From Pleodorina starrii (taxonomy: Eukaryota; Chlorophyta; Chlorophyceae; Chlamydomonadales; Volvocaceae), in assembly GCA_030267565.1 (NCBI GenBank), contig BRXU01000022.1:1260001-1324000 (forward strand): a stretch of DNA of 64,000 bases. The letters are read 5' to 3'. A model generated the notes under the pieces. It worked only from the letters and a program-made list of their open reading frames with translations, was not told where the DNA came from and ran no database searches. Positions 11,409 to 25,046 of this stretch are shown here, one piece after another. Positions within the stretch are counted from its first letter, which is position 1; every line of letters starts with the position of its first letter. Made by a program: the position numbers and the translations under genes.

Positions 11409-11583
11409 TGGTTGAGGTTGACTCCACCGTTTCGACAGGCTGAGCCTTCATTTTCGCTCTAGCATTTTGCTCGGTCGCAAACATGTAAGCATGCGGCTGA
11501 ATTGGGTTGGTCTGGCTTCAAAGGGAACGGGCTGTCATTCGCTACAAATGGATCAATCGCCATTTCATAATGATGTTATTGGC
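11409..11583. promoter_or_regulatory. Left remnant of a divergent promoter; upstream ORFs of the Sfi1 gene
   Basis: This gene-free strip lies between the Sfi1-gene start (minus) and the left transposon end. On minus, an upstream ATG at 11451 opens a 37-codon ORF that overlaps the main start out of frame and stops at 11338. Another ATG at 11463 opens a five-codon ORF. If transcription starts above these, they would reduce initiation at 11408. Together with 22148-22224 it reconstructs an original intergenic space of about 250 bp between two divergent genes. No TATA box was recognised. Confidence 0.5.
11577..11583. repeat. Target-site duplication, left copy (TATTGGC)
   Basis: TATTGGC directly abuts the left TIR and is repeated exactly at 22141-22147 directly outside the right TIR. 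The bases beyond differ (T before the left copy, A after the right copy), so the duplication is 7 bp as read. Zisupton-type elements are usually described with 8-bp duplications. Confidence 0.88.
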
Positions 11584-11705
11584 CAGCTAGGTCACCCGGT
11601 AAGAAGTGCCGATATAAACGGTATGATGATTTTGGCAGGATACAGATTTTAACGGCATACGACCACACTTTGACCAGAATTACGGCGAACACGGAAGCAC
11701 ATTTT
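11584..11705 (+). repeat. Left terminal inverted repeat of the KDZ element
   Basis: It begins CAGCTAGGTCACCCGGTAAG. The reverse complement of 22019-22140 matches over all 122 bases with two substitutions about 20 bases from the tip. The repeat contains no ORF; long TIRs usually hold the transposase binding sites. Confidence 0.93.
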
Positions 11706-11875
11706 ATACAACAGTAATCAGCATTCGGTATTCTATTTACACCAATTACACAGGGATACATGTATTGTCGTAAATAAGTTGCAAACTTCTGAATATAGAA
11801 GGTCACGTTTCGGACCACTATTCGTGTCCTCTAACGACACACAGACCGCTATGCTTGTCCAATTTACTCTTTAAT

Positions 11876-14800
11876 ATGGCCGAGAGTGAGAAGAAACTTC
11901 GGCGGCTTCCAAACAAGATCTCTATCGGTGTATCTTGCTGCCCTGGCCATTCCACACCAATTTCAGCTCGACGACAGCCTAGACCTGGCCAGTTGGTGCC
12001 CCGGACTGCGACAAAGCGCCTGAAAGTAAACTATCCCGTCGAGGACGTAGCTGTAGACCAGGACACAGATCTCCCGCCAGACCATCCGACGGGCCCGCGT
12101 CCGTACCGCACGCCGGATACTCGCACTTGGGCCGAAAGGCAGGAAAGGCAGGAGGCGGCGTGGGGGTTCCAGTTCCCCGAGATCCAGAAGCAGCTCTTGC
12201 GGAACGCAGCAATTCACGCGCAAATTAAGCGCGACGTGTCGGCCACTCTGCTGGGGTTAGTCCAGACCCGCCTGGATGGACTGACTTCCACCTGGCGCAC
12301 GCAGCACAGCTGCGGAGACCCGCAGCACCACCCCGGCAATCTGGATGGACGGTTCAAGCAGGATCTGGCGACGACCGTCCGTTATATTGGCCTTCTATCC
12401 TCTGGGCCGTTGTACGTACCTGCGGTCACCTGCCAGATGTGCCAAGTGCAGTACGTACCCCACCCAGTCGAAGCAGGATGCTTCCCGAGTTCCCCGGTCG
12501 ACCCCCATGTCTGGTACGACCTACACGTACATGAGGCGTACAACGTGCTCGGGTTGGAAGGGCTCAGCGCTACCGGTAGGTAATCGACAGACGACATACC
12601 AGGCATGGAGCGGCGCAGCAGACCGGACACAAAGAACAACATGCTTGACTCTTGATGTCTGATCAGTCGTTCAATCAAACGCTCCGTGTTTTTCACACAC
12701 CCAACCCTCCGTATAGCCTGCGTTCCCCCCTTCACGCGACTCGCTCCACTTACCCGCGCACCCTGCCGATCTGTTGCGTGCCCCCCAGACTCCTACCCAA
12801 CGTACCCCATGATGTCCCGCGCTTCCCACTCTGCCAATGTCATCCTCACACCATTATTTACCCGCGCACCCCACCTTCCGCAGACTTCGCTGAATACGTG
12901 GAAGAGAGTACTGGCGAGCACGTGGATGACCGTCAATTCCTGGGCTCGTTCTTGCTTACCTGCGGACGTCGGGAAGCGTGGACACCCTCGAAGCGCTCGG
13001 TGTGGAAGGCATGGACACGGGGCCTTTCGCGGACTGCCCCATCTGTGCAACGCTGCCTAAACCCGCTGAAGGTACGACCACACAGCTTCCCCTTTATAAA
13101 ATGCCACATTGCAAGATTGGTATTTCGCGTTTTTGACCGCATTTCCCGGTAGGCGCCCTTCCCCGTGGGTACTAGAAATTTAATGAGGCTCCTAGTAGTG
13201 GATAGTCAGGGGCCCGCGGCTGTAAGCGGAGTCTCAAGGCAACGCCCCCCCCCTACTGCGGGTTCGCTACCTTGTTGTGCGCACGCGGTTCTCGCTGGGT
13301 AGTTCGCATTCTGGTCCGGCGGGGGGTAATAAGAAGGGCCCGGGGCGAGGGGAACGCAACGCAGTTACCTGGAATATTACCTGAGGATTACCTGTTATCT
13401 CCAGCAGAAAGAAAGCGAGCGCGTGGCCGCGTCGCCGCCGACCAACCCCAGACGGACTGGCACACGACAGCGGGGCGGCGGGGGGATCCCTTGTCCGGAG
13501 GTCCCCACGGCAATGTCGAGCTTGCAATGCCGAGCAACCACCACCGAATCCATCATGGCAAGTACGACATTGCGTTCCCCATGACCACGAGGCCTAGTGA
13601 CAGTGTGATCGACGTTGTTGTCACACCCCAATATGCCTGTCATGTACTCCCTATTTCAGGCCCGGAGACGTCGCCCGGGGAGGAGCCCGGGCCTCAGCCA
13701 GCTTACCCACTGGCAGTGTCGCTGGACGCCGTAACCAAACTTGGTCACTATGCGAACTGCGGGACTGGTTCGGGAAATTCCCTAGCTCACCTTGACCGGT
13801 ACTTCGGACCTGTTGACGCGCGCGTCAGCTCCGCGCACTCGGCCGGGAAGCTCGACTTGCGCAGCACGATAGGAGATCCCACGCTTGACTGCACACCCTT
13901 TGATGGGGATGCACCATGTGTGTCATCGCTCCACTGTGCGCGCCCTGACGCCCCGTCCGCCAGTGGGCCATGCGACATTCACGGCGTTTGCGGTGCTGTG
14001 TGTATGCATACAGTCCCGCTGCGCAGCGTCTTCTGCGATATGCGCACACCAGAGCAGTTTGCTTACTATCTCCTGATGCTGGGTCACATCATCCAGCAGC
14101 GGCCTGACCTGAAGCACGTGTACATGGACTTCGGCTGCCGCATCGCCAGTACTTGGCAACGGTATGTTGCCAAGCACCCCGAGCTGCCCCCCGAGGCTGC
14201 CGGGCTGGAGATCATGGTCAACTGGATGCACGGCAACGGCCACGGTGTCGCGTGCCAGCTGACCAACAGCGGGCGGTACAGGAAGGGAGCCGGGCGCCGT
14301 ATCGGCGAGGAAATTGAGCAGCTTTGGAGCGGCACCAAGGTGTGTTACCGAATGCACGTTGAATCGCTGTGTCGTCTTTGCATTGTGGAGGAAGGTCTCT
14401 CACGTCGTCTCCCGCTCGTACCCCTCGTGCAGCCCGTGGCGGGCCTGGTTCGGTACATGACGCAGGCGCGCAGACGGGACTTTGTCGAGGCGGTTCTTAG
14501 GTCCCTGTCGCGCAAGAAGTTCAAGAAGATGGTCAAGCTGCTGGAGATGAAGTACCGTGACACCGTGAAGCTAGCCAGTAAGGAATGGTTATAATTTAAA
14601 GTGAGGGGGTTCGGGTTTCAGACGTTATCGTTGACGTGTTCATTGCCACGCAGACGAGGGTGTGGCGGAAGTGGCCAAGGTGGTCGACGCTGCTGCACGT
14701 GCCGGCGTGGTGGATCTTCCAGCGGCAGCAGCGGAGTACGTGCAGTCGGTGGTGCCGACCAGCAAGGACGCTGCGCAGCCGGACGAGGCTGCATGGCAGG

Positions 14801-15918
14801 TAGGCGGCAGTAATGGGTTGGGTGTGAAAGGGATGGTAAGGATGGCACTTACACCTAGCGCTTACGCAGGTGGAGTACGTGTTGCTCCGGCTGCGCGAGA
14901 TGGAGCTTAGGGCCCTGCAGGGCAAGGCGCCCTCGTTGGCCGTCGTGTCCAGTGCTTCCGCTGTGGCTCTGGCCGCCGCGAGCACTGAAGCCCAGGTTGC
15001 CAAGCTCCGGGCTGCTCTCACGAAGATGGAGATGGCGCGGGAGATGAGCCCTTTGGAGCGTGGCAAGTGGAAACCTGGCTACCCACTGTTTGACGCCGCC
15101 GTGCAACGTCTCAAGGAGCGAGAGGTGCAGAGGTATGGGCCGGGGCGGGCTGGGCGCACCTGTGGTGTCTGGGCAGGGGGTCGTCGGCAACCTCGAAGGA
15201 GCGGACAGAGGCGGCAGGGGAGGGCGGGGGGGGGGGGGGGGGGGCGCGATGACATGTGACCGCGGGGAGAGGAAGCACTACCCCTTTTGGAAGCCGTATG
15301 TATACTTAAGTTCATCCCGCTCCTGTCGGCTTCGCCTCATGGTAGTAACCAATCGACCCATCTTCCCACTACCCCGTCCCTAGGTGCCAGGCGCGCGTCG
15401 AGACGCTGGTGTTGGAGATACATCAGACGCACGCCGAGCGGGAGCTCGCGGGGGCCACGGACAAGGACGCGAAGCGGAGCCAGGCGCGGGCCCGCCGTAA
15501 GCGCGCGCAGATCCGATCCATGCTCGAGGAGATGTACGTGTGGCAGGGCGTGGGGGGTGACGGGCAAGAAGTGGTCGTGAGGTTAACTGAGCAGCAAATA
15601 AAGCAGCTGTACGTTCCGGGGGAGCTGGCGCCCTGGTGCACACCGTCCAGTGGCGCAGCAGCCATGCGGCGACACCACGGCCGCCTCTTCCACGAAGCCG
15701 ATGCCGCCCTAACGCGCTCCCGCGAGGAGGTTGGGTTCTTGCGGTATGAGATGTCCCGTCTGGGCACGTGGCTGAGGAAGGCCGCGCTGTGCGTTGAGGC
15801 CGCGCGCCAGAAGAAGCTGGGGGTATGTGCAGGGAGTGTGTTCCTGTTGGATGGGCACCTCAGGGCTATGGAGGCCCTGCAGTCCGAGCTGACGAACAGC
15901 CGCATCCCCAGCGTTTAG
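11876..15918 (+). CDS. KDZ transposase (one apparent frameshift in exon 2)
   Basis: Six exons on plus: 11876-12575, 12884-13071, 13405-14577 (start 13408 also fits), 14654-14799, 14870-15132, 15384-15918. Total is about 1001 codons. It starts at the first in-frame ATG. The N-terminus carries a cysteine cluster (CQMCQVQYV, then GCFPSSPVDPHVWYDL) and later CPICATLPKP, as in the CxC modules of KDZ transposases. The DDE core is in exon 3: SLDAVTKLGHY; HGVCGAVCMHTVPL; YMDFGCRIASTW; and HGNGHGVACQL followed by RRIGEEIEQLWSGTK. These supply the expected D, D and E. The last exons are helical, ending near FLRYEMSRLGTWL, matching KDZ C-termini. Oddity: in exon 2 the frame used up to about 12945 does not reach the CPIC frame after about 12965 and no intron fits between, so one base is lost or two gained. 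The 3' signal TGTAA lies near 16435. Assignment to KDZ is firm; activity of this copy is doubtful unless the shift is an assembly error. Confidence 0.85.
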
Positions 15919-18106
15919 TTTTGATTGTTGCCTCGGGGATGATGCCGCATCGGCCCACTTATGTTAATAGGTTCAGGACTGTATCGGTATGCACGGGTGC
16001 CGGGGCACAGTTGAGATTGCAGGGGATTTTTAGCTCGAGTTTGCGGACTTACACCCTCCGGAGGACTTCGGGTTAGGGGACCGACCGTGGGGACCAGCCG
16101 GCTTACCACCTGCGTGTACAAGTACTTGTTACAATGGGCTCCAGACCCCTAGAGGGTCCTTTGTCTGGGTGTGGTAGGGCGGTGTGTGGCGCAGCAGGGG
16201 GGTGGGGGTTTCGCCCGTGGTTTTCGCCGGGCCTCGGCCCGGCTGTGGTTGTCGCCCTGTTGGGGCGGTGGTTCAGGTGTGTTCTTGCCGCAGCGGCGGC
16301 GGTTCGATGGTGCGCGGTTGCGGTTTGGGGTCGCGCCGCGGGGTGTGGGTTTCGTGTGGGGTGGCCGCACGCTCGGCTGGTGGGCGGCTTGGGGAGCCGT
16401 GCGCGCGGCTGGTGTTAGGCTGAGTTCTCCTGCAGTGTAAGGGCCCTTGGCAGTCGGTCCCCGCTCCTCGTCTCGTTCGCTCTTTTTCAAAAGCACTTTC
16501 ATTCAGCTTGGCAGCTTCGGCAAAAGCCACAAGATTACAGGTTAAGGGAGACAGGAGCACAGAAGTGAATCTGGAGGGTGCATTTCCCATTTTAATACGC
16601 TGTATCGCCGGCCATTCCTGCCGGCGCCACTCACATCCGAATTAAATGCCAAGGCACAGCGCACCACAGCACAGCGCAACGCAATCCAGCACAACCCCGG
16701 TCACGCTGTCGCTAATCGCATTGGTGGGTCACAGGAGCCCAAAGTGATCAAAGCATGCCCCAGATCGCATCACACCACCAGCCAAGACACAACCCGAGGG
16801 GATGTAGATGGATCCATGGGACTCTGTGGCGGGCTGGGGATACAAGCTTCAGTGGGAACGGAAGCAGGAGAAGCGTGGAAGGGCCTGAAAGGCAGGGAAT
16901 AGGCAGGGGCAGAGTAGCGAGTTAAGGGCAGAGAGTACCGAGGGGCGGTGAAGAGCAAAGGAGTAGCAAGAGGCAGGGAATCAGGACAGTTAGGGCGGGG
17001 CTCGCACCTGTAGAGCCGCGAAAATGGGCCCCTCGGTGGGCAAGGCGGTCGGAGAAGGGAAGGAAAAGGCTTTGCCGGGGACCGGCGGCGCAGGAAGGGT
17101 AGGCCGCAGCCTCGAGTCCACAACCCTAATGAGGGGAGTCACCTGCGAACCCGGCGGAGTGAGGCCCGAGGTGTTGGGAGACGAGTTCCAGGCGGCAAGA
17201 CGCACCGTGGACGGTACCGGGATGGGGGAAGAGGGACCAGGCGGGGGCGCGGAGAGGTCCAAGGTGGGGCTGAAGGTCGCCGCGAGAGAACTGGCGGGCC
17301 GCTGAGAGATCAAGCGGACCAGGGGAGAGCCCGCCCGCCGTTTCTGCGCAACCCGGGTGGGTTTAGAGATAGGCGAGCGCTCGCGGGTCGCTGGCTGGCT
17401 TACATTGGAGCATAACAGCACCAGAGGCGCACAAGAATTGGCTCCAGTCGGGCCGGACCGGTCGGAATCCAATGCAGCCGCGAAGCCGACGAATCCGGTC
17501 TGCATACCGGTAGCTGTCTTAACTGTACTCGCTGCTCGTACGCCGTGCGTGGCCGGGTTAGCGTGGCGCCTTTGGGCTGCGACCCGGCACCCCCCTGTGC
17601 CCTCTGCGCTTTCAGTGTGACGCGGTGGCCGGATTAGCGTGGCGCCTTTGGGCTGCATCCCAACCCACCGAACGCATATTACAGCTGGGCTCCTGTTATA
17701 CCCCTATCGTTTCAACTGTACATTGGGCAAGCCCTCTCCTTGGGATAAAGTCTCTCATTCGGGCGAGGGAGGAAGGACTGCCCACACAACAAGTCCAAAA
17801 CCCGCGCTGCCCACAGTGCGTGCCCTCCGACACGAAAATAGTCACCAGTGGCACACGCCCCTTCAAAAAGGAAACCCTCATTTAGCAAAGCGGAGGGCGC
17901 AAGCTCACCGCACCATGACGGTGCTATGAAGGCGCTGCTGCACCATGACGGCGCTACTGTAGCTGTGCACCAATAACTAAATTTTATCAATCCTGTAAAT
18001 AAGATAGGTTTGCGAACAAGCGACCATTCACGACTGTACGGCAGCCTACACACGTACAACGGTAAGTAACAACCTGTAACGCCATTTAAGGGTCGAACTA
18101 TCAAAA
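15919..18106. other. Spacer between the 3' ends of the two KDZ genes
   Basis: This 2.2-kb stretch has no convincing gene. 15919-16450 reads as the transposase 3' UTR, with TGTAA near 16435 and a G/T-rich structured stretch at 16150-16420. 16600-16720 has a short CGCCGGC hairpin and CAGCGCA-type micro-repeats. 16990-17600 holds a minus-strand Pro/Ser-rich open frame with a possible donor after 17011, which could be an exon but has no clear partner. A 76-bp-spaced direct duplication lies at 17547-17660. Confidence 0.5.
17547..17660 (+). repeat. Direct duplication, period 76 bp
   Basis: Two copies of a segment of about 37 bp lie at about 17547 and 17623. The invariant core is TTAGCGTGGCGCCTTTGGGC, preceded by GTGGCCGG. 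It lies in the spacer between the convergent KDZ genes and has no known role. Confidence 0.7.
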
Positions 18107-21100
18107 CTACGAGGAAAACGCCACCGCGATTCGGCTGTAGACCCTTTGCAGGATCTCGGCCCGGTTTGGAACCGGGCATGCGAGCGCTCGGAGCTCGTCA
18201 TACAGCTGCTGCACCCGGACACCGTCGGGGTTAGGCGCCGCCAGCGCACTCTCCACAGCGGCAACCTTCGCGTCCCAGTCTAGCGCAGCGGTGTCCGCTC
18301 GCACCCGAGGGTCCGCTTGCACCCCGGGCCGGATGCCATCAACACCCGGCACCGCGACCGCGGGGTCCCCGCGGGTGACCTCGCCCCGGGCGCCCCTGGG
18401 CTTGCTTGGGACGCCGTGAGCAATACCCGCCGCCTTGGCCGCCTTCTTCCAAGCGTCGATAAGCTTGTCATCTGGCATGGCGCCCACTGCGACATTGATG
18501 CTGCGCCAATGGGCGATGGCCTGGTCCCACGTGATGTCCCTCTGGTCCTCGATCATCTTGGCGAACGCCTTGATCGTCCCCGCCCTCTGCAAACACAATG
18601 TAGTGACGGGTAAGGGTCTCTGTGGATAGTAGACACAGACAGCTACTGGCACGGCTTACCTGCCCTTTCTCGAATCTTGTCCCAGGCTCGGCGGCTGCAG
18701 TGCGCGGCTGCTGCTGCTGGTGGTTGGCAGCGATGGGGCCCGTCACCTGCCCTTCCGGTGGTGGCGGTGGAAAGGGCACCGCTGTAGTGCGGGCTTGTGG
18801 GCCCATCCCCGACGGTCCGGCGGCGCCCACCAGGCCCGCGGCCGTGGTCAGCTGTTGCTGCTGCACCTGTGGATCCGGAGCCTTGGCGCCGGTCGCCAAT
18901 CCGCCAAGGTGTGGGGCTGGTCTGGCCACCAGCGTGTGCACCACCTGCTGTGGCCCCGCAATCGGCATGGCGGCGGCGCCAATTATGGCATCGGCATGGC
19001 GGCGGCGCCCCCAATTACCGTAGCCCCTCCTATTTCTAGGCCTTGAACCGGGCGGCAACCCGGGCCTACCCCGCACCACGAATCCCGCCTTGTTACGGCA
19101 GGAAAGACCCTCCTGCAGCTTCCGTACTGAGCTAAGCCAACATGTCCAGTTCGCAGTCCCTCCCCCACTCCCGCACACACACACACACACCTGCATCTGG
19201 CGGCACACACCCACCCCTTGTCGTACTACGTGCCGCCGTACCCATCGGGGTTTCGGCGCACTTGTAAGCTCCAGCCGCCATTGCAAGCGCCCGACTGCTG
19301 GAGGGTCAAGATGTTGCACTTCGGGCACACAATCGATGTCACGCGGTTCTTAGCCTCCATATTCTTCTTGTGGTCACTGAACCACCTCGTTTGGATCTTG
19401 CGTTCCTCCGCTTCCAGGAGTTTCGCCTCGAGGTCGGACGCAGGGGGCTGCTGCACAGGCAGCCTGTTAGCTTCAGCTGCCGCTCTGTCGTATTTCCACA
19501 CGAACCTCATCAAGACACGCTTGCGAAGGAAGTTCATGCCTTGCTGCTTGTTCAGTACATCCAGCGCATCTTTGACCATGGTTTTACGGAGGTTGTCATC
19601 GGCGTGACCTGGCGACGCTGCCGCCGCCTCTGTGGCCAACTCCTCCTCCGCGGCCAACTCCTCGTCCAACCCTTCATCAAGGTATCCTACGTCTGCCTGT
19701 TGTTGAGCCGGTGCAACGGCGGCTGGGCCGACCTCCGTCCTCGCTGCCGGCTCGCCACCGGCCGCCGGCGAGTTCTCGGCTGCCAGCTGGCCACCGCCTG
19801 CAAGGGGGGGTGGCTGCTGAGGAGGTTGCTGCTGCAGCAGCAGGGTTGCCGGCGACAAGGCTGCCAGGTCGACGGGTGCACCCGCACCGTTCGCGCGCGT
19901 CGGTGGTGTCGGCTGCTGAATAGGATGCTGCATTAACGGTACCGCCCACGGCAAGGCAGGGAGGCCACCTGGCCAGTCGTTGCCGTCCACGTCAGGACCA
20001 TCGTCTCGGAGTAGAAATGAAAGGTAACCAGCGGCTGCTAGCTCCTCCAGCGGCTGCGGCTGCGGTGGTGGCTGCGGGGGAGGCTGTTGCTGCAGTGACA
20101 GCGTCGCCGACGACGGCGCGGCGAGCCCGGCGGATGAATCCGAGGGGCTGTGGCGAGCCACTAGCTCCTCCAGCGGCTGCGGTTGCGGTGGTGGCTGCAG
20201 GGGAGGCTGTTGCTGCAGTGACAGTGTCGCCGACGACGGCGCGGCGAGCCCGGCGGGTGGATCCGAGGGGCTGTGGCGCGCCGCTAGCTCCTCCAGCGGC
20301 CGCGGCTGCGGCTGACGGCCGGGCGGCCAGGTGGCCAGGACGGCGGGTGGGCCAGCGCCGTCGGTGCACGGCGGCAGCAGCCCCGGCTGCGGAGGCTGCT
20401 GTGTCGGCAGCTGAGATAGCTGCTGTAGCTGCATTGGCCGCATACCGCAGCGAAATCCCAGCTTAACTTTTCTAATGGGCGGGGCCGCCGCCGCTACGAC
20501 AGCGGGCGGACGGGCCTCCTCTGGAATGGACTGTTGCTGCCTCAGGCGCGACTGCGGGTCCTGTGGCTGCGTCGCCGCTGGAAGGGCCGAAAAGGCGCCA
20601 GTGTCGCCGATGGAGGGCGGCGCCGCATCAGTCGTGGTCGGGGACCCTACACAACACAGGACATGCATCCTTCGATGGCACGATCCATGCATAGCGAGGG
20701 GTACCAGCGCGCCCAACGACCCAGCTTATCGCACCTGGATTGAACCACATATCCTCGCCACGTCGCAAAGGGGCCTGCCGTGTGCTGTCGTTCTCCTGGC
20801 GCAGTTCCTCCGTCATGTACTCCACAAGGCTCTGCAGTACCATAATGCCAATACTGAGTGTCAAACCGCCACCATAACGACAAGAGGGGCACTTGCAAAG
20901 CTGCCAGACGCTTACCATGCCGTTCCACCGATCCCTCCTCAGTCGCATGACTAAGGGGGTGGGAGCCCGCCGTTTCCGTGAAGACAGTGGGTCCGCAATC
21001 GCCTCAGCCGTCCGGCCCAGCTGTATGTGCAGGTCCCAAATCTCTTGGCCGGTGCGCAAGCGAGGGCCTTCTTCGGACTCCACTGCAACGCACTGCGCCG

Positions 21101-21833
21101 GAACCTCGAGATCTCTGCACAAAGAACCGTGTTTCGGTCGGGACAGGGCACACATGTACACGAGGTTGGGTGTCTTGTTCACCCTGCCCAGTAGAACCCA
21201 CCTGCTGGTGGCCAGTACGTGGTCCTGGATGACATCTGCCAGGCCAACCCACTTTGCGACTTGTTGGAAGTCTGCCCTGCAAGCTTCCCTAGCACGCTCA
21301 TTTGGCAAGTTGCCTGCTGCCAGGACCTCCTCAAATGCCGTGTCGAGGGCTTCCTAGAAAGCTTGGGGGCTCTGGCCAGCGCGCTCCCCCTGGACCAAGT
21401 CAAAAGGAATGGGGCATCGGGGGGTGGGCTTAGGGTTCGCGGGGAATCGGGGTGGGGATAGGGTTGGATGAGGGTTGGGGTTGGCGCGGGGGTTGAGGCA
21501 TTAGGGTTGCTGCTGGGTACTTGGGCCAATTATGTGTATGGGGCATATCCAGGCCCACTTCTCAAATTATAACCCCTGACCAGTACTTGTGCATCACTGG
21601 CACGCGCGCGCACGCACCTGCCCCCGCAGGAACGCGACGCCCCGGTGTGCGACGTCGACCACGGAGTACACGAAGTTCTCCTTGTTCCGCTGGAAATTCA
21701 CAGACCTATTATGCGTTCCATAGTATGTAGAGCAAGAGGCCTTGCTTCGAAAGCTTCTAATGACTGCGTTGGAAAGTTGTTCTGAAGCCATCGTCATGCT
21801 TTCTTCTACGTTCTCGACTTCGTGCACCATCAC
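18107..21833 (-). CDS. Large companion gene of the KDZ element, unknown function, zinc-binding motif
   Basis: Six exons on minus: 21833-21618, 21353-20916, 20831-20735, 20646-19262, 19112-18660, 18586-18107. All phases agree, giving an intact 1022-aa product. It starts MMVHEVENVEES. Residues about 73-250 are compact and globular-looking (SRWVLLGRVNKTPNLVYM; GQEIWDLHIQLGRT; EDMWFNP). A central Pro/Gln/Ala region carries tandem 41-residue repeats. Then comes a basic helical segment (KDALDVLNKQQGMNFLRKRV) and a Cys cluster split across the exon 4/5 junction (CPKCNILTL, then CNGG, then SCRNKAG), suggesting zinc and nucleic-acid binding. The C-terminal exon is alpha-helical (ITWDQAIAHWRSINVAVGAM). 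I recognise no family. Placement inside the TIRs and convergence with the transposase imply a role in transposition or control of it. The minus-strand TGTAA signal is near 17683. Confidence 0.8.
20035..20320 (-). repeat. Tandem 123-bp (41-aa) repeat inside the companion gene
   Basis: Two full copies and a partial third of a unit reading LEELVARHSPSD, then SAGLAAPSSATLSLQQQPP, then Pro/Gln. Unit starts are visible on plus at the repeated CTAGCTCCTCCAGCGG near 20039, 20161 and 20284. The length is a multiple of three, so copy-number change keeps the frame. Confidence 0.8.
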
Positions 21834-22018
21834 CGGTCAACCATAGTCAGGCCTACGAGGCGGTCAACGCATGCCAGTGTTGGCATTAGACGAAAGCGCT
21901 GTCAAAAAGTCAGGTCAATGCGGCCGGGGAACCCTTTGGTTACATGCACTATCTGGCAATTGCAAATGCTTGTATTCCAAATAAATGCTATACCGAATAC
22001 TGTTGTATAAACTGACTG

Positions 22019-22140
22019 AAAATGTGCTTCCGTGTTCGCCGTAATTCTGGTCAAAGTGTGGTCGTATGCCGTTAAAATCTGTATCCTGCCAAAATCATCA
22101 TACCGTTTATATCGGCATTGCTTACCGGGTGACCTAGCTG
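22019..22140 (-). repeat. Right terminal inverted repeat of the KDZ element
   Basis: This is the mirror copy of 11584-11705. On plus it ends in ACCGGGTGACCTAGCTG, immediately followed by the target-site copy TATTGGC. It lies 85 bp upstream of the start codon of the OPR-like gene. Confidence 0.93.
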
Positions 22141-22147
22141 TATTGGC
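22141..22147. repeat. Target-site duplication, right copy (TATTGGC)
   Basis: This is an exact partner of 11577-11583, abutting the right TIR. It marks the element end to the base. Confidence 0.88.
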
Positions 22148-22224
22148 AATATGCAATATTTCAGCGCAAAGTACCAGATAATTGTTCAGAAGATTTCGAT
22201 ACAATAAGTTGTAGTGCAACCGTC
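22148..22224 (+). promoter_or_regulatory. 77-bp remnant upstream of the OPR-like gene
   Basis: Only 77 bp of host DNA separate the transposon's duplicated target from the ATG at 22225. Whatever drives this gene is now either inside these 77 bp or supplied by the element's right end. The strip is AT-rich, with no recognised core element. Confidence 0.45.
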
Positions 22225-25046
22225 ATGCAAGGTCATGCCAGTCGGCTAGGAAATCTCCTGCTTGGCCATGCATTGCAGCGCGGAAAATTAGCTGCCGTAT
22301 GCTGTGAATGCATTCAACTTCCTGCCGGCGCATGGCGCTTCTTCGCGTCTGAGACCGCCAGCACACCATCCGCAGCACAGCGGCGGGCGCAGGCGGCTCG
22401 CACAGTGCCCTTCCTGACGACCGACGACTTTGGGCGGCCCACCGTCATCCACCGATCCTCCGGACCTAGGGCACACGAACTTCCGGGCAACCAAGCTTCC
22501 GGAACTTCGCACGATGCCACGGACGACCTGCCCACGGCCGGTCGTAAGAGGAGACCCCACCGCCAACAGTCCGCTGAGAGGACTCAGCCCTCAGACGGCC
22601 CTGACCCGGCACGCCGCGTTGACCGGCCGAAACACTCCCTGGATGCTCCCCCCGAGCCCCGCCGCAAGGCCGGGCCGGCACCTCCCACCGACGTAACCGC
22701 CGCTGCCGCCGCCTCGTCCTTACCTCTCCCCGCACGGCCCCGCGCGCGCCGCAGCGGCGGCACCGCCGTGTCGGCTCCAGGGACACCGCTGGGCCCCGCC
22801 AGTCGCGACCGCCAGCTCACCTTCCGCCTGCTCAAGGCCAGCTCCCTCCGGGAGGTAGACCAGCTGCTGGCCGGCCACCCCGCTCCGGGACCAAACGTCA
22901 TCCACCTGGCGGCTGCGGCCCGCCAGGCGGTTCTGCTGGGCAGCCTGCCGCAGCCGCAGGAGACGCGGGAGCTGCTGGACAGGCACCTGAAGCGACTGGC
23001 GGAGAAGACCGCAGCGGCGGCGGCAGAGGCGGCGGCGGCGGAACGAGCAGCGGCGGCGGAAAAGGCAGCAAGGGAGGGCCCAGCCCAGCACGCTGGCACA
23101 GGAGGCGACGCGGCGGCGGGGGCGCCGCCGCCGGCGCCGCCGGCGCCGCCTCTCCGGGAGGTGGGAGACGTCCTGTGGGCGTACGGAAAGCTGCAGTGCA
23201 AGCCGCCGGCCCGCGCTTGGTCGTCCGTGCTTCGCCCCGTGCTCCTGGACCCGGCGGCGTGGCAGCAGCTGCGGGAGGCGGCGCAGGCCGATGAGGCGCG
23301 ACAGCAGCAGCGGCGGCGGCAGCGGGGGCGGCAGCAGCCTCCGGCCGCTGCGCCCGGGGGGGTCACCGAGGGTGATGTGCTGGGTAGGGACATCAGTAAG
23401 GCGGCGGTGGCGCTGGCGCGCATGAAGGAGCTGGATGCCCAAGTCTGGCGGCTGCTGGCGCGCACCGCCGCCGCCGCGGCGCCGGACATGAGCCCACGCG
23501 CGCTGTCGTCGACGCTGTGGGCCTTCGGCTCGGTTCGCATGACCCACGGGTCGCTCCTGGCGGCGTCCGTGCGGGCCATCCACCCCAGGCTCCGTCAGCT
23601 CAACGCCCAGGACCTGGTGTGCGCAATGTGGGCCCTGGCGCGGCTGGCGCCGCCCATGGAGGCCGGCGCCGCCGCCGCCAGCAAGGCCGCGGCTGCCGCC
23701 GCGGCGGCGCGGCGCCTGCTGTACGGCGACCTTTCCGACGCCGTGCGGCGGTGCCTGCAGCTGCGCGGCTTCAAGCCCACGGAGCTCACGACGCTGATCG
23801 GCGTGTTGGACGAGATGGCCGAGAGCCAGCAGCTTGTCGTACAGCCGGGAGGCGGCGGCGGCGGCGGTGGTGGCGGCGGCTCGCTGGCCGTCAGCCCGCG
23901 GCTGCTGCGAGTGGTTAGCCAGGCGGTTCGGAAGAACAGCTCGTCGCTGCCGGTGGGATCGCTGGCGGCGGCCGCGGACGCCTTCCAGCGGCTGGGCCAC
24001 CACGACGCGGCGCTGTATCGGGCACTGGCGGCGGCGATGGGGCAGCGTCTGCGGCACATGGAGCCTCGCCACCTGCTGCGCGCGGCGGCGGCGCTGCAGG
24101 CGGCAGGGCACAGCGACCGGCCGTTCTTCGGAAAGGTGGGAAAGGGGGGCAGGAGGGTGGAGCGCGAGGGCGGTCGGCGGTGGCCCGGCAGAGAGGCGGA
24201 GGCAGTGGCGGGCGTGGGACTGGCGGCGGAAGAGGATCAGGGAGAGAGAGAGGGCAGTGAGGGAGGGGGAGCGGGGGCGGGGGCGCTGCACGTTGGGGCA
24301 CCTGCATGCATGCGGGCGCCGAACCCCCTTCCGCCCGCCAGGCGAGGAAACAACACCTGCCCCGAGCGGCCTGGTTTCCCCTGGACAGCCCTCATGGGCC
24401 TCATCCCGTTATCCGAGGCGACGGAGTGCTTCGCTTCGCGACAACACATCCGCCCAACCAGTGGGGACGCAGCGTCCAGAACATCCCCGCCCCCACACAC
24501 TAAACGAGCAGATAGAACTGAGCCCCTTGAGCAGCATCCCTGGAGCCTTATCCCTCAGGCCGGGGCCCCTACACTGCGAAGACTCCGTCAACCCCAATGA
24601 CTCTCATAGACACGGAACACAGCATATGCATGCCGCCTCCCCCTCCCCCCCCTCTCTCTCTCTCGCTCGCGGGCGCCTGTCCGGCCAGGTGCTCGAGGCC
24701 GCCAAGCCCCGGCTGGCCGCCTTCAAGCGCCACGAGCTGCTCGCAATGGCGGAGCTCTGCAGCCGCCTCACCGGTGGGGCAACTGACGGGGCCGACGGCG
24801 CCGGGGCCGCTCCCGCCGCCGCCGCCGCCGCCGCCGCCCCAACCGCCGCCGTCGTGGACCCTGCGGTGGCTCGGGCCTTCCTCCACTCCGTCGTGCAGCT
24901 CGCGGTATCGTCCGTGGAACCAGTACCACGAAGCGCCAGCGGCCGCCGCCGCGCCGCCGCCGCCACGCCTTCGGCCGGCGGCGACGGCGAGGCGCTCCCT
25001 GAGGGGACGGTCGCCTCGTCGTCGTCGTCGTCGTCGTCGTCGTCCT

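Follow-up and report, generated by a model that had tools for sequence, protein, structure and literature searches.

A low-copy family of KDZ DNA transposons in the colonial green alga Pleodorina starrii includes a defective copy that was likely moved in trans

A 64,000-bp stretch of contig BRXU01000022.1 from the green alga Pleodorina starrii (from here on, the window) contains two large convergent genes between inverted repeats, and a preliminary description read this region as a near-pristine KDZ transposon in which the transposase gene and a second gene are both intact. The locus raises the question of whether it is a complete transposon and, if so, whether it could have moved by means of its own proteins. 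We found that window positions 11584 to 22140 are a real, complete copy of a KDZ DNA transposon with exact ends and that both of its genes are damaged. We consider it likely that the element is a cut-and-paste KDZ transposon of a new, low-copy P. starrii family and that the defective window copy was moved in trans. The element and its ends are as follows:

11584-22140, plus strand: complete KDZ transposon copy of 10557 bp, defined by paired terminal inverted repeats (TIRs), the duplication and sister copies
11577-11583, unstranded: left target site duplication TATTGGC, read at the element ends
22141-22147, unstranded: right target site duplication TATTGGC, read at the element ends
11584-11705, plus strand: TIR on the transposase side, starting CAGCTAGG, from the arm-to-arm match
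22019-22140, minus strand: TIR on the gene-2 side, with mismatches at positions 21 and 23, from the arm-to-arm match

As previously described, the two arms are 122-nt TIRs that pair with two mismatches, and the element is flanked on both sides by TATTGGC; its termini are CA..TG. Using the left arm, we searched the genome of the bisexual strain NIES-4479 (136,057,477 bases in 95 contigs; one haploid assembly) and obtained at least 14 matches, comprising five head-to-head pairs, three single ends (on contigs 38, 1, and 39) and one weak match (81%) on contig 5; copy and match counts based on the TIR are lower bounds. The five pairs bound the window copy (C22; 10557 bp) and four more full-length copies, i.e., C2 (10554 bp; on contig 2), C1a (10673 bp), C24 (11018 bp), and C1b (12703 bp), all of which have the mismatches at positions 21 and 23. 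Perfect 7-bp duplications are present at four of the five copies and differ in each case (TATTGGC, TCAAAAC, GTCATAA, and GGCAGTT), and we conclude that 7 bp is the rule for this family. We rejected an 8-bp duplication, as at none of the four duplicated sites can the repeat be lengthened by a base on either side. The 200-bp flanks on both sides of the five copies (ten in total) gave no cross-matches at E<=0.001; homology, therefore, ends at the TIRs, and we rejected its extension into host flanks. The preliminary description had named a lack of other copies and homology running into the flanks as grounds for doubt, and neither was found. The observation of five full-length copies with dissimilar flanks, four of them with perfect 7-bp duplications, goes beyond chance.

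Three loci related to these ends have features of their own. The match on contig 5 (4765244-4765349; L020) is a lone TIR-like stretch, for which we found no partner end within the surrounding 9.9 kb. In the single-ended copy on contig 39 (982722-998141), gene-2 exons lie ~12 kb from the last exon, indicating that it is interrupted or rearranged. In the window, an open frame on the plus strand (22138-24600) starts at the right end of the transposon, and its product from 22204 has a sub-threshold match to FAST_1 (22.7 bits; cut-off 27.4). The first ATG of this frame is ~85 bases away from the transposon, which may therefore have inserted into the 5' region of this gene.

The transposase gene has seven exons:

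11876-12575, plus strand: exon 1, from the gene model and homology to the Edaphochlamys debaryana protein HYH03_014087 (P0003)
12884-13071, plus strand: exon 2, with one base missing after 12953 relative to three of the five full-length copies and the frame lost, from copy comparison
13660-14339, plus strand: exon 3, the KDZ catalytic core (SLDAV, YMDFGC, GEEIEQLWS), from the profile match and alignment
14433-14577, plus strand: exon 4, with the same splice in the annotated male-strain protein PLESTM_002075400 (P0001)
14654-14799, plus strand: exon 5, from the gene model and P0001
14870-15132, plus strand: exon 6, from the gene model and P0001
15384-15918, plus strand: exon 7, ending at the stop codon, from the gene model and P0001

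This model, with six GT..AG introns, yields a protein of 885 amino acids in C1a, C24, and C1b, and P0001 has identical splices from exon 3 onward. The spliced C1a product contains the KDZ domain (PF18758; 100 bits against a cut-off of 26.6), and C22 is among the eight PF18758 matches in the genome. In agreement with the preliminary description, the three acidic positions (two D and one E) are encoded in exon 3 (SLDAV, YMDFGC, and GEEIEQLW). The transposase matches P0003 with 48% identity over 99% of the query. For alignment and fold prediction, we used 15 of the 17 relatives, leaving out P0016 and P0017. D478, E538, and E541 (P0003 numbering) are invariant across the 15 aligned proteins, and the first acidic D is conserved wherever its segment is present (it is absent in P0011, P0012, and P0015). 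In an AlphaFold model of P0003 based on the 15 sequences (mean predicted local distance difference test score [pLDDT], 67), the order of strands and helices is consistent with an RNase H-like core; D478 directly follows a strand, and E538/E541 are part of a helix. For a linked CxC domain, the spliced C1a product gave a CxC3-like match below the threshold (11.8 bits; cut-off 26.6); PF18804 (CxC3) is present in 6 of 11 Haematococcus relatives.

The transposase gene is open in three of the five full-length copies (C1a, C24, and C1b) and frameshifted in C22 and C2. The responsible 1-bp deletion in exon 2 is not in a homopolymer and shifts the frame upstream of the three catalytic acidic residues. 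Thus, the intact transposase previously ascribed to the window copy is found in three of its sisters. The transposase exons of C1a and C24 have diverged less (8 differences in 2658 positions) than the introns (13 in 1372; Fisher p=0.010), a pattern which, together with the coding counts given below, weakly suggests selection for function.

Other KDZ sequences were also observed. Contig 1 has another, strongly diverged KDZ-like locus at 8717424-8718225 (24-31% identity; L026, L028, and L059), and a further KDZ match is at 7482206 on contig 2. The male-strain KDZ protein PLESTM_001078600 (P0002) is 69% identical to this transposase. None of the scored candidates from the NIES-4479 assembly matched at the level of P0002, which, judged from these comparisons, may represent a strain-specific sister family.

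Gene 2 is convergent to the transposase gene and runs on the minus strand from 21791:

21618-21791, minus strand: exon 1 (MASEQLSN...), from the gene model and annotated sisters
21202-21389, minus strand: exon 2, with TAG (base 21356) for CAG in C22 and C2, from the splice of the five annotated sister proteins covering the region
20916-21114, minus strand: exon 3 (DLEVP...NGM), from annotated sisters
20735-20831, minus strand: exon 4, its end placed at a GT donor, from the gene model and annotated sisters
19226-20646, minus strand: exon 5, Pro/Gln-rich with 123-bp (41-amino-acid) repeats and a stop codon at 19226-19228; protein P0023 shares this end
18981-19257, unstranded: replaced segment of 277 bp, from comparison with sister copies and contig 5
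18107-18586, minus strand: last exon of full-length sisters, cut off by the upstream stop codon, from sister comparison

We rejected a model with 21115-21201 as coding sequence and a later acceptor, because the annotated proteins show that 21115-21201 is an intron. Exon 5 runs into the replaced segment, which matches neither C1a nor C1b; the region is missing from C24. A 251-bp part of the segment (19005-19255) aligns with contig 5 at 1.11 Mb (86% identity). The form seen in C1a and C1b recurs in a diverged relative at 7.88 Mb on contig 2, indicating that the window form is derived. In C22 and C2, the replaced segment brings in the in-frame TAG at 19226-19228. Accordingly, the 1022-amino-acid gene reported earlier as intact is a shortened form: annotated P. 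starrii gene-2 proteins have 1209 (P0019) and 1252 amino acids (P0026, PLESTB_000044600, the model of which starts at a later exon), and residues 37-1252 of P0026 match C1b at 100%. In addition, the CAG-to-TAG change at 21356 is shared by C22 and C2 and absent from the five other copies examined; an acceptor directly after this TAG could avoid the nonsense change. Damage in other copies is of a different kind: a base is missing from C1a at 20481, as is the final part of its last exon, and the GACNGGW stretch is absent from C24. C1b has nine of nine tested markers. The tandem 123-bp repeat, at 20038-20311 in the window, varies in copy number in C24 and C1b, and the repeat marker LEEL[VA]ARHSPSD occurs twice in C22, C2, and C1a, six times in C24 and seven times in C1b.

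What, then, might gene 2 do? Our best guess is that its product is a partner of the transposase. Tentatively, it could instead be a captured or drifting, repeat-rich passenger without a working role in the transposon, as would fit with its Pro/Gln-rich composition and variable 123-bp repeats, and with its being broken or shortened in C22, C2, C1a, and C24. Also in line with a passenger, the protein searches yielded relatives from P. starrii alone: all eight hits among the best 7990 candidates by shared words were from P. starrii, a ranking in which low-complexity words may have crowded out distant relatives, and so were all six hits obtained with residues 1-235 of P0019. However, gene 2 is kept in all five full-length copies and in two of the three single ends, C1b has all tested markers, other strains hold long annotated genes, and the diverged relative at 7.88 Mb on contig 2 keeps the identical segment order. 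Short pieces with 41-44% identity on contigs 2 and 51 hint at further relatives of gene 2.

The evidence for movement in trans comes from C22 and C2. These two copies differ only in one G-rich tract (15234 and 15243-15245) and share all lesions, i.e., the exon-2 deletion, the TAG at 21356 and the replaced segment; nevertheless, they occupy unrelated sites, each with its own perfect 7-bp duplication. Together, these observations indicate that at least one of the two was probably inserted after the damage, by transposase provided in trans by sister copies, and the near-identity of the twins suggests very recent movement. We propose that a two-gene element, encoding a KDZ transposase and a second, convergent protein, is bounded by the 122-bp TIRs, and that the transposase would cut at the CA..TG ends and insert with a 7-bp stagger, giving rise to the 7-bp duplications. 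The window copy would be non-autonomous, having lost its transposase by the 1-bp deletion and part of gene 2 by the replaced segment, and intact sister copies would supply the transposase in trans. The copies with their ends and duplications, the gene models, the lesions and the identity of the twins are shown by the sequences; the cut-and-paste chemistry, the supply in trans and any role of gene 2 we infer. A broader version, in which a volvocine KDZ lineage forms an obligatory two-protein system of transposase and repeat-bearing partner with a 7-bp stagger and with doubly damaged copies moved wholly in trans, is in our opinion doubtful.

Several results weigh against this proposal. C1b has no target duplication and is left unexplained by the 7-bp rule. 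When joined, its flanks align without a break at the insertion point to two paralogous stretches nearby (90% over 194 bases; 80% over 164 bases), from which its unoccupied sequence is known by paralogy; the left side of these matches covers just 34 and 32 bases, where the paralogy ends. Judged from these two unoccupied stretches, the C1b insertion appears to have neither duplicated nor removed bases. For C22, C2, C1a, and C24, searches of the one haploid assembly with joined flanks returned no uninterrupted empty site. Thus, the expectation of 7-8-bp duplications and empty sites at other copies was borne out for the duplications at four of five copies, while unoccupied sequence was found just as the paralogous stretches for C1b. 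A PDB structure search with the P0003 model gave no match at E<=0.001 (best, 0.26). Pfam had no match above the cut-off for P0019 or a 695-amino-acid model of gene 2; the last exon alone gave no more than a sub-threshold match. Synonymous and non-synonymous changes in the transposase are few, at 5/3 (C1a-C24), 4/3 (C1a-C1b), and 1/2 (C24-C1b; ratio 0.65). Finally, the shared lesions of C22 and C2 and their identity outside the G-rich tract would also be expected if gene conversion or template repair had made the copies identical, with the frameshifted copy unmoved after the damage. We regard such conversion, the main rival to our explanation, as improbable. The identity extends through both TIRs to their final base and no further, and conversion over 10.5 kb with its endpoints precisely at the two termini is the less likely event; moreover, the different 7-bp duplications represent two separate insertions. 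That the window copy is autonomous, with the frameshift being a sequencing error in the assembly of PacBio and Illumina reads (PMC10256686) or bypassed by alternative splicing or frameshifting, is very improbable; we found nothing in favour of it, and the deletion is present at two loci outside a homopolymer, the same two copies bear two more lesions in gene 2, and the altered gene-2 end recurs in the female-strain protein P0023. We therefore retain movement of a defective copy in trans as the likely explanation.

In a colonial green alga, this KDZ family is well resolved and combines exact ends and repeated 7-bp duplications with open and damaged copies side by side in one genome, including a near-identical twin pair. 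Because three assembled P. starrii strains exist (PMC10256686), it is possible to test movement in trans, the duplication length and whether gene 2 is needed. We found no description of this family in the openly licensed papers searched, and the P. starrii genome paper mentions transposable elements once (PMC10256686). A green-algal KDZ element with exact ends and two large convergent genes is supported, as the preliminary description had it; its rarity was overstated, given that KDZ elements are annotated in Chlamydomonas-group genomes (PMC8226300) and Ectocarpus (PMC12477816). KDZ movement in Chlamydomonas has been reported (PMC8226300, PMC12477816, PMC10828217), including a 31.7-kb element moving in C. 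reinhardtii (cited in PMC12477816), and KDZ elements are also described from fungi (PMC12730594, PMC12810828) and nematodes (PMC9297572).

The Pleodorina element has the features of the KDZ superfamily, i.e., the PF18758 domain, three acidic residues, and TIRs with a duplication within 4-8 bp. The duplication length, earlier contrasted with the 8 bp of Zisupton elements, indeed differs from that of Zisupton at four of five copies; it does not conflict with KDZ, as fungal Kyakuja elements have 7 bp (PMC12730594) and KDZ2 and KDZ3 of Cryptococcus neoformans have 4-8 bp (PMC12810828). As described, fungal Kyakuja resembles the Pleodorina element in its KDZ transposase, 7-bp duplication and 5'-CA..TG-3' termini but differs in the absence of TIRs in the two families described and in its second gene, a TET/JBP gene (PMC12730594), whereas we observed 122-bp TIRs and a different second gene. 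By its description, Kyakuja-3_cRei of the related green alga C. reinhardtii, found inserted in a gene, is similar in having imperfect terminal inverted repeats but has an 8-bp duplication (PMC10828217). For these reasons, we placed the Pleodorina family at the superfamily level and did not file it as Kyakuja. The C. neoformans elements KDZ1, KDZ2, and KDZ3 are of similar size (~9-11 kb), with long TIRs (139-241 bp), a KDZ transposase and duplications of 8 bp in KDZ1; their transposases have a CxC1 domain (PMC12810828), in contrast to the sub-threshold CxC3-like match here. The E. debaryana protein shares the KDZ domain but is from another species and was compared as a protein, without element ends. 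The giant KDZ elements of Ectocarpus likewise have accessory genes and often pseudogenised transposases, and mobilisation in trans was inferred by the authors; these brown algal elements are generally >10 kb and up to 30.3 kb in size and contain nested insertions (PMC12477816). The Pleodorina element leaves the picture of the superfamily unchanged and is a new family of the known superfamily KDZ.

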